From Hyphomicrobium album (GTDB lineage: Bacteria; Pseudomonadota; Alphaproteobacteria; Rhizobiales; Hyphomicrobiaceae), in NCBI RefSeq assembly GCF_009708035.1, contig NZ_WMBQ01000001.1, positions 558,001 to 622,000 of the forward strand: a stretch of DNA of 64,000 nt, given 5' to 3'. The translations under genes were made by a program, and so were the position numbers. The notes beneath the pieces were generated by a model that was not told the origin of the DNA, did not search any database, and was given only the letters and a program-made list of their open reading frames with translations. Each line of letters starts with the position of its first letter. Position 1 is the stretch's first letter. Positions 29,290 to 31,592 of this stretch are shown one piece after another.

Positions 29290-30867
29290 CTAGAGAGCCT
29301 GCTGCACGCGGGCCGTCTTCTGGCGCTTCACCAGCAGCTTGTTGAGCGCCGAAACGTAGGCACGGGCCGAGGCGACCATGGTGTCGGTATCGGCGCCGCG
29401 CCCGGTGACCACGCGCCCACCCTCCTCGAGCCGCACCGAGACCTCCGCCTGCGCGTCGGTGCCCTCGGTGACCGCGTGCACCTGGTAGAGGTCGAGCTTG
29501 GCCTCGTGCGGGACCAGCAGCTTGATGGCGTTGAAGATGGAGTCGACCGGACCGTTGCCGGCCGACTGCACCGTGTGCTGCACGCCGTCGATGTCGAGCG
29601 TCAGCGTCGCCGACTGCGGACCCATGTTGCCGGCGATGACGGTCAGCGACACGACCTTCATGCGGTCGTGCATGTGGGCGATGCCCTCGTCGACCAGCGC
29701 CTCGATGTCCTCGTCGTAGACGTGCTTCTTGCGGTCGGCGAGGCTCTTGAAGCGCACGAAGGCGTCCTCGAAAGCGTTCTCGCCCAGCTCGTAGCCGAGC
29801 TCCTTCAGCTTGGAGCGGAAGGCGTTGCGGCCCGAGTGCTTGCCCATGACCAGCGACGACTTGCCGACGCCGACCGATTCCGGCGTCATGATCTCGTAGG
29901 TCTGCTGGTACTTGAGTATGCCGTCCTGGTGGATGCCGCTCTCGTGCGCGAACGCGTTCCGCCCGACGATGGCCTTGTTGTACTGGACGGGGAAGTTGGT
30001 CACCGCCGAGACGAGGCGCGAGGCGCGCGACAGCATCGTCGCGTCGATGCCGGTGGCGTAGGGCAGGCGGTCGGCCCGCGTCTTGATTGCCATGACGATC
30101 TCTTCCAGCGCAGCGTTGCCCGCACGCTCGCCGATGCCGTTGATGGTGCACTCGATCTGCCGGGCGCCGCCGTCCAAAGCCGCCAGCGAGTTGGCGACCG
30201 CGAGGCCGAGGTCGTTGTGGCAGTGGGTCGAGAACCGCACCTTGTCGGAGCTCGGCACCCGCTCGCGCACCATGCGGAACATGGCGGCGTATTCCTCCGG
30301 CGTCGCGTAGCCGACGGTATCGGGGAGGTTGATGGTGGTGGCGCCGGCCTTGATCGCCGCGTCGACGCACTGGCACAGGTAGTCGATGCCGGTGCGGGTG
30401 GCATCCATGGCGCTCCACTCGACGTCCTCGACGAGGTTGCGGGCGCGCGTCACCGTAGCGGTGATGATCTCCAGCACCTCGGCCTCGGTCTTGCGCATCT
30501 GATGCGCGAGGTGGATAGGCGAGGTGGAGACGAACGTGTGGATGCGCCCGCGCTTGGCGTGCTTCACGGCATCGCCGGCGCGATCGATGTCGGCGAACAC
30601 GGCCCGCGCCAGCCCGGCGACGGTGGCATTCTTCACGCGCCCGGCGATGGCCGAGACGGCCTCGAAGTCGCCGTCGGAGGCAATGGGGAACCCGGCCTCG
30701 ATAATGTCGACGCCCATCTGGTCGAGGCACTCGGCGACCTCGAGCTTCTCCTCGTACGTCATCGTGGCGCCCGGGCATTGCTCGCCGTCGCGCAAGGTGG
30801 TGTCGAAGATGACGACGCGGTCGGCGTCGCTCACTCGAACCTCGGTGCTATTCGGATCGGTGGTCAT
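29290..30867 (-). CDS. leuA: 2-isopropylmalate synthase
   Basis: First committed enzyme of leucine synthesis: condenses acetyl-CoA with 2-oxoisovalerate. The 525-residue protein has the TIM barrel with FDTTLRDGEQCPGATMT at residues 25-40, the metal-binding STHCHNDLGLAVANSL segment and GIHQDG. The C-terminal LeuA dimer domain gives allosteric leucine feedback, with GPVDSIFNAI and VHAVTEGTDAQAEVSVRLE. The ATG at 30867 is preceded only by a weak AAGAAG. A leucine-rich leader peptide and RNA stems upstream point to leucine-responsive attenuation. Confidence 0.96.
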   Translation of the reverse strand: MTTDPNSTEVRVSDADRVVIFDTTLRDGEQCPGATMTYEEKLEVAECLDQMGVDIIEAGFPIASDGDFEAVSAIAGRVKNATVAGLARAVFADIDRAGDAVKHAKRGRIHTFVSTSPIHLAHQMRKTEAEVLEIITATVTRARNLVEDVEWSAMDATRTGIDYLCQCVDAAIKAGATTINLPDTVGYATPEEYAAMFRMVRERVPSSDKVRFSTHCHNDLGLAVANSLAALDGGARQIECTINGIGERAGNAALEEIVMAIKTRADRLPYATGIDATMLSRASRLVSAVTNFPVQYNKAIVGRNAFAHESGIHQDGILKYQQTYEIMTPESVGVGKSSLVMGKHSGRNAFRSKLKELGYELGENAFEDAFVRFKSLADRKKHVYDEDIEALVDEGIAHMHDRMKVVSLTVIAGNMGPQSATLTLDIDGVQHTVQSAGNGPVDSIFNAIKLLVPHEAKLDLYQVHAVTEGTDAQAEVSVRLEEGGRVVTGRGADTDTMVASARAYVSALNKLLVKRQKTARVQQAL

Positions 30868-30892: not shown

Positions 30893-30987
30893 GCTCCCTC
30901 GGGAGCGGCGTTGAACCTTCAGCTCGCTCGACTTGTCATCCCCTGAGCGCCCGTTCCGGATCGGCCGGAACCAGTTCGACTCAGGGG
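30893..30987 (-). promoter_or_regulatory. leuA leader RNA with nested hairpins (attenuator)
   Basis: Within the leuA 5' region on the minus strand there are three stems. An outer perfect 8-bp stem pairs 30980-30987 with 30940-30947 (CCCCTGAG and CTCAGGGG). An inner perfect 7-bp stem pairs 30965-30971 with 30953-30959 (GTTCCGG and CCGGAAC). A third 6-bp stem, GCTCCC/GGGAGC at 30893-30906, lies 26 bases from the leuA ATG. The outer stem's left arm contains the leader peptide stop codon, so ribosome position would decide folding. No U-run follows, so a translational or Rho-linked switch is as likely as classic termination. Confidence 0.65.
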
Positions 30988-31094
30988 CTGGTAAGGAGCA
31001 GGCTCAGGCGCAGGCGAAGACGCGCCGACGATCCGCGCCGGGTCAGCCCCGCGCAGGTAAAGAAAAAGCCGTCGATGCCAAAGGACTGGCGCAT
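30981..31094 (-). CDS. leuL: leuA leader peptide (leucine-rich)
   Basis: A 37-codon frame from ATG at 31094 to TGA at 30981, ending 113 bases before leuA. Its last 13 residues read LRLRLSLLLTSP-type sequence with six leucines, plus one earlier, exactly the composition expected of an attenuation peptide for a leucine gene. A GAGAGG ribosome site lies just upstream. The leucine run is placed immediately before the nested RNA stems. The name leuL is used by analogy with enteric leu leaders; this sequence is not homologous to them. Confidence 0.72.
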   Translation of the reverse strand: MRQSFGIDGFFFTCAGLTRRGSSARLRLRLSLLLTSP

Positions 31095-31592
31095 GCGCCC
31101 TCTCTTAGTACATCGCGGCAGTTAAGGCTAGCCTGCCCATATCTCTGCCGGGGAGGCCACTGGGCCGTGTACTCGTGAGCGGTGACCGGTGAGCTTCTGC
31201 TCCAAGCCCAAAAGCGCTCATCAAAAGGCCGGCGAGCGGGTTGCCGGAGGGCCGGGAGCTGATGTGAGTGGTCAATCCTGTTCGGAACACCGTGAGGTCC
31301 GCATCGCATAGAGGGAAGCGGACGTCGAGGCGGTCAGAGCGGGGCCGATCACATCTACCGGGTTCATAACCGCATGGCACCGACGCGCGGACGTTCGCCA
31401 ACTGTCGCGAGAGGGACGCCAGTGTTTTGGCTCCGGGCGGCTTTGCATGACTTCACTCATTGAGGTTCACTTGACTTCAGGTCCAGGTCGCTCGGTGTGA
31501 ACTGGGTTTAAATGACGGACAGCGCCGCTGCGTGCTAGGGTGCTGATACGTAACTAGTGTGCGGCGGGGGGACAGCCTCAAGGGAGGGTCCC
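31095..31592. other. Non-coding gap between the leuA leader and DUF2092 gene
   Basis: This 498-base stretch should hold two divergent promoters. I see GTGAGC-GGTGACC-GGTGAGC, a short run of GGTGA-type repeats at 31175-31194, but no gene with a ribosome site until GGGAGG just before 31593. Three overlapping minus-strand open frames here lack ribosome sites and recognisable domains. Confidence 0.45.

Follow-up and report, generated by a model that had tools for sequence, protein, structure and literature searches.

How can a hairpin under ribosome control regulate a gene when terminator and competing helix are both missing? This question is posed by the region upstream of leuA (2-isopropylmalate synthase) in Hyphomicrobium album, where a window of 64,000 nt (the whole stretch of DNA analysed) carries the gene at 29290..30867, with its ATG at 30867. 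All coordinates refer to this window, and all of the features described lie on its minus strand.

Leader peptide and stop-codon hairpin upstream of leuA

An ORF of 37 codons at 31094..30981 encodes a leader peptide of 37 aa (MRQSFGIDGFFFTCAGLTRRGSSARLRLRLSLLLTSP, ending in LLLTSP before the stop), with six leucines among its last 13 residues and a distance of 113 nt between its stop and the leuA ATG. The ORF, its leucines, its distance from leuA and a GAGAGG ribosome site had all been listed in the initial annotation, and each of them was found in place. GAGAGG (31104..31099) is a putative Shine-Dalgarno (SD) sequence of the leader ORF; it could alternatively be the spacer behind TACTAA, a hexamer resembling a -10 element. 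The TACTAA/TATTAA near the leader ATG could be such a -10 element, which would make the ORF nearly leaderless. Toward its end the leader carries the putative control codons CTG CTC CTT (31001..30993), the last of which (CTT, 30995..30993) forms with the following base a CTTA tetramer (30995..30992) and is separated from the stem by exactly 5 nt, this A included.

The stop codon TGA is itself part of an 8-bp stem, whose 5' arm CCCCTGAG (30987..30980) holds the stop and has its complement in the 3' arm CTCAGGGG (30947..30940), and above this stem stands an inner 7-bp helix (GTTCCGG/CCGGAAC) with a loop of 5 nt (30953..30971). Both stems had been proposed beforehand and are borne out; the 59-nt hairpin has a folding energy of -32.6 kcal/mol, beyond chance (z -4.8), and the covariation of the stem among relatives exceeds that of all 500 shuffles. 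The whole conserved element extends over 30937..31001, where covariance model R1 scores 64.8 bits; this is its sole significant match in the host genome, the only other match of that search (E 0.6) not being located upstream of leuA.

Conservation, codon usage and taxonomic range

LeuA was used as an anchor in 60 related genomes, 57 of which gave a match, and 54 upstream regions were taken. The comparison of leuA upstream regions that the initial annotation had suggested turned out in its favour, as 52 of the 54 regions contain, about 110 nt 5' of leuA, an ORF ending L-L-x-x-P-stop (CTT A.. ..C CCC TGA in the DNA) together with the Leu codons, CTTA, Pro-stop and the covarying stem CCCC-stop-G/CTCAGGGG. 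Complementarity between the two arms is complete (8/8) in 48/52 of these relatives and 7/8 in the other 4/52; an 8/8 complement arises in 1.1% of shuffled downstream DNA. In alignment A2, five of nine stem pairs have changed on both sides, with 14 such cells compared to 2.1 in shuffles. Compensatory pairs that keep both the stop and the pairing include CCCCTAGG/CCTGGGGG, CCCCTAAG/CTTAGGGG, CCCTTGAG/CTCAAGGG and CCCCTGAA/TTCAGGGG, so that TGA, TAG and TAA stops are each matched by a corresponding 3' arm. Relatives repeatedly show an outer stem of 8–12 bp topped by an inner helix with a small loop, a short bulge (commonly GGC, GUC or CGA) lying on the 5' side; such an inner helix, variable in sequence and set above an internal bulge, is the usual arrangement.

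The leader C-terminus is conserved as L-[LR]-L-x-x-P-stop, with Pro preceding the stop in all collected leaders, and the N-terminal half (including FFF) is variable; within the genus only the MRQ start is kept. In two close species (L007 and L008) the leader ORFs differ by four synonymous changes only. Codon -7 encodes Leu in most relatives (87%) and in most other matches (98%), with CTA, CTC, CTG and CTT all in use, codon -6 is Leu or Arg and codon -5 is CTT. This last Leu codon is CTT in all 159 collected leaders (100%), an invariance that is partly built in because the search for relatives used a 5'-side pattern and the collection was thereby partly selected on CTT; a few divergent relatives outside the collection are exceptions, those that escaped the pattern having the same layout with CTA (L230), CTTC (L224, L225) or a lost stop (L232, L236). 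Leu frequency in relatives reaches 33–52% from -39 to -24 and is 6–17% further up. With the fixed codon excluded, CTT still accounts for 36% of Leu codons in the leaders versus 3% in the matching leuA genes, the excess being limited to the last ~9 leader codons. The host genome has five single-copy tRNA-Leu genes, one per anticodon, GAG among them. Taken together, conservation, synonymous variation at Leu positions, CTT enrichment and compensatory stem changes strongly support a leucine leader peptide with a stop-codon stem, and conservation at the level of the codon points to tRNA charging.

Two side observations concern the stem itself. Five leaders (L029, L031, L070, L232 and L236) have TGG or CGG where the stem otherwise holds the stop, and the stem itself persists; in L029 and L031 the next in-frame stop follows four codons on, still within the hairpin. 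Counted from the base that follows the stop, positions -15 to -3 hold several nearly invariant bases in the 159 leaders: the A next to CTT, the G preceding the stem and three basal C-G pairs. CTTA and the CCC/GGG stem base vary less than the hairpin and the codons seem to demand.

Model R1 matched 169 of 199 genomes in the order and, in the class, 66 of 289, the latter figure being a lower bound since strict filters were applied and small genomes are part of the sample. Thirty loci from the class search were opened, that of the host genome among them; 29 could be read at once as leuA leaders and one (L058) on its other strand. A survey of the phylum with the covariance model gave matches in Alphaproteobacteria only, apart from two marginal partial ones. 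An exact-pattern scan over 85,000 species genomes, which made use of no protein information, returned at least 80 readable loci; among the matches listed, 78 of 80 are located 113–235 nt upstream of the LeuA motif DTTLRDGEQ, all of them in Alphaproteobacteria, the remaining two being a palindrome in an ANME archaeon (L102) and a Bradyrhizobium site that is not upstream of leuA (L159). Judged from these sequence comparisons, the leader hairpin is an element spread across Alphaproteobacteria upstream of leuA. Several genomes of the order that have no element (family f23 and others) harbor only a distant LeuA paralogue with ~32% identity. Family f23 is a large-genome family of the same order (G057, G388, G392, G406) with neither the element nor an orthologous LeuA. 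In small genomes of family f3 (L226–L229, L231) the leader is absent and leuA comes immediately after an ilvC-like gene, as assessed by eye, and family f242 and others keep degenerate forms of the element.

How the hairpin may act on leuA

Besides the hairpin, nothing is conserved up to the leuA SD, and no second conserved segment is seen downstream among the 159 leaders. The absence of a U-run, already remarked upon in the initial annotation, applies to the window and to the class as a whole: five T in a row within 20 nt after the stem were found in only 1/159 leaders, and an intrinsic terminator was rejected on this ground (no U-run in the window nor in 158/159 leaders). The annotation had also placed a third stem near leuA and had read the nested stems as the layout of attenuation. 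The third stem does exist in the window (GCTCC-CGAG-GGAGC, 30906..30893) but is not conserved, and of the proposed layout the two-storey stop-codon hairpin is conserved whereas the third stem and a 2:3 pairing are in no excess over shuffles. Over 157 leaders, the region downstream of the hairpin has no more structure than shuffles (MFE z -0.04), and the best downstream duplex of the 3' arm shows no excess complementarity (z -0.11 ± 0.10, SE). A frameshift at CUU-A past the stop was considered and rejected, as the leuA frame relative to the leader is spread 64/53/42; no shifted leader frame is preferentially open into leuA or fused with it.

The reading preferred here, with a probability of about 0.72, is that the element is a leucine-responsive, ribosome-mediated leader of leuA in which opening of the hairpin would raise expression. 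Under shortage of leucyl-tRNA (probably of the GAG isoacceptor reading CUU/CUC), a ribosome would pause with its A site on CUU, so that the leading edge covers the lower 5' arm and the hairpin opens at its base; a ribosome waiting two codons earlier would leave the hairpin intact. When the RNA is cut at the leading edge of the ribosome, the predicted pairing of the 3' arm falls with the position of the A site from 0.99 (-21, hairpin intact) through 0.74 (-18, partly open) to 0.42 (CTT codon, open at the base), a structure prediction in which the footprint edge comes from general knowledge. Since the hairpin is predicted to open with the ribosome at CTT, the fixed distance of 5 nt between CTT and the stem acquires a natural meaning. 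The open hairpin, as the sole conserved structure, would be the switch that raises leuA expression, and normal termination or lack of translation would let it close and keep expression low. Leu codons upstream of -18 are predicted to stall ribosomes without opening the hairpin, which makes the polarity of the switch uncertain; the opposite polarity, or sensing at Pro-stop, is possible.

How a closed hairpin would lower expression is a further step; neither an intrinsic terminator, nor a conserved antiterminator, nor a helix sequestering the SD was found. Given the missing U-run and the lack of a conserved competing helix, the closed hairpin may act through Rho, with termination on the stretch of RNA that separates the leader stop from leuA. 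This route is somewhat favoured over mRNA decay or an effect on translation, and is a guess by elimination. Confidence falls from the ribosome waiting under leucine shortage, through the open hairpin giving more leuA, to Rho as the effector, all three of which we infer.

A transcription attenuator of the classical trp/leu type, in which the stop-codon hairpin is 1:2 and its 3' arm enters a 2:3 helix that prevents a 3:4 terminator, would fit the order of the parts; GCTCCCGAGGGAGC in the window could partly pair with CTCAGGGG, and with the 5' arm masked the 3' arm pairs downstream with a mean probability of 0.63. Such competing pairings can be drawn in the window, yet they have no comparative support, and the missing excess of a third stem or of 2:3 pairing over the 157 leaders deprives this alternative-structure model of support; with the U-run lacking as well, it appears quite improbable. 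The enteric leuL leader (the leu attenuator of Salmonella and E. coli) also has a short Leu-clustered ORF before leuA with RNA hairpins in between, but here there is no U-run terminator, there are no conserved competing helices, and the stop codon lies inside the stem at a fixed distance from one CTT codon. Nascent-chain arrest as in TnaC, by which L-[LR]-L-x-x-P would hold the ribosome at Pro-stop and occlusion of the hairpin would be the signal, is unlikely. The tnaC leader ends in Pro-stop, has no intrinsic terminator and depends on Rho, and occlusion by the ribosome decides downstream transcription; the Pro-stop and the missing intrinsic terminator are shared with the present element, a C-terminal Pro slows translation termination, and Leu at -7 is kept as an amino acid. 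On the other hand, ligand-induced arrest is not evidenced here, the final Leu codon is kept as CTT, a constraint on the nucleotides that goes beyond coding for Leu, the CTT enrichment covers a zone of nine codons, and in L029, L031 and L070 (L232 being similar) TGG stands where the stop would be and the stem persists.

It is improbable that the leader works by translational attenuation of the kind proposed for the actinobacterial LEU element, in which pairing of the Leu codons to the leuA SD closes a pseudoknot (PMC1262725). The Leu run (CTCCTTA) resembles an anti-SD sequence that a stalled ribosome would free, CTCCTT being complementary to AAGGAG and leuA SDs being AAGGA-like, and the LEU element likewise combines a Leu-rich leader before leuA with no obvious terminator and an unsettled mechanism (PMC1262725). 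However, the conserved structure here is a plain hairpin that includes the stop codon, Leu-SD pairing is absent from the predictions (mean of 0.04 over 52 leaders), the window leuA has a weak SD (AAGAAG), no U precedes the SD to match the invariant A that follows CTT, and predicted SD openness is nearly equal in the two states (0.48 in the full RNA versus 0.55 with the 5' arm masked). Very improbable, finally, is a DNA operator, or an ORF incidental to a structural RNA: CCCCTGAG and CTCAGGGG do form an inverted repeat, but the spacer between the arms ranges from ~23 to 53 nt, G-U pairs occur, the compensations preserve the stop, frame and stop are kept, and the conserved Leu positions vary synonymously.

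Known leaders and sequences upstream of the ORF

The nearest systems in gene and logic are enteric leuL and the actinobacterial LEU element. No family of Rfam 15, the leucine-operon leader included, gave a covariance-model score above its gathering threshold, and the weak matches below E 10 are unrelated. The alphaproteobacterial ilvB/ilvIH leader belongs to the same class and, as far as it is treated in the accounts that cite it, also encodes a branched-chain amino-acid leader peptide (Vitreschak 2004, cited in PMC1273637; also PMC4117421); it controls ilv genes, not leuA, and is described as blocking a Rho-independent terminator (PMC4117421). A motif search of 2005 in alphaproteobacteria (Agrobacterium intergenic regions) reported the ilvB leader and not the present element, a S. 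meliloti Ribo-seq paper and a Bradyrhizobium sORF paper mention no leuA leader, and the open literature yielded no description of an alphaproteobacterial leuA leader (subscription literature, including the 2004 survey of Vitreschak, lay outside this scope). A sharply defined, class-wide element in front of a central biosynthetic gene is thus absent from Rfam and from the open literature searched, in a class to which bradyrhizobia, methylotrophs, Caulobacter and acetic acid bacteria belong. It is proposed tentatively, at somewhat less than even odds, that this is a leader type of its own throughout the class, with one stop-codon hairpin and one CUU at a fixed distance, that it would regulate leuA with no competing helix or intrinsic terminator (e.g., through Rho or mRNA decay), and that it may serve Alphaproteobacteria as a main leucine sensor. 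With CTT so enriched, the isoacceptor hypothesis can be put to a direct test; the small size of the element would allow every position to be scanned by mutation, and the element could serve as a leucine-responsive genetic part.

Sequences in front of the leader show some recurrence of their own. Just 5' of the leader ATG, at 31095–31135 of the window and in three loci of the same genus (L002–L004), the blocks CTAGCC and TGTAYTAAGAGATGG are kept within the genus. In other genera (L007, L012, L013, L016, L022, L023), blocks resembling CTTGCAA...TTTGACA recur ~40–90 nt before the leader start and are possibly a promoter or an operator.
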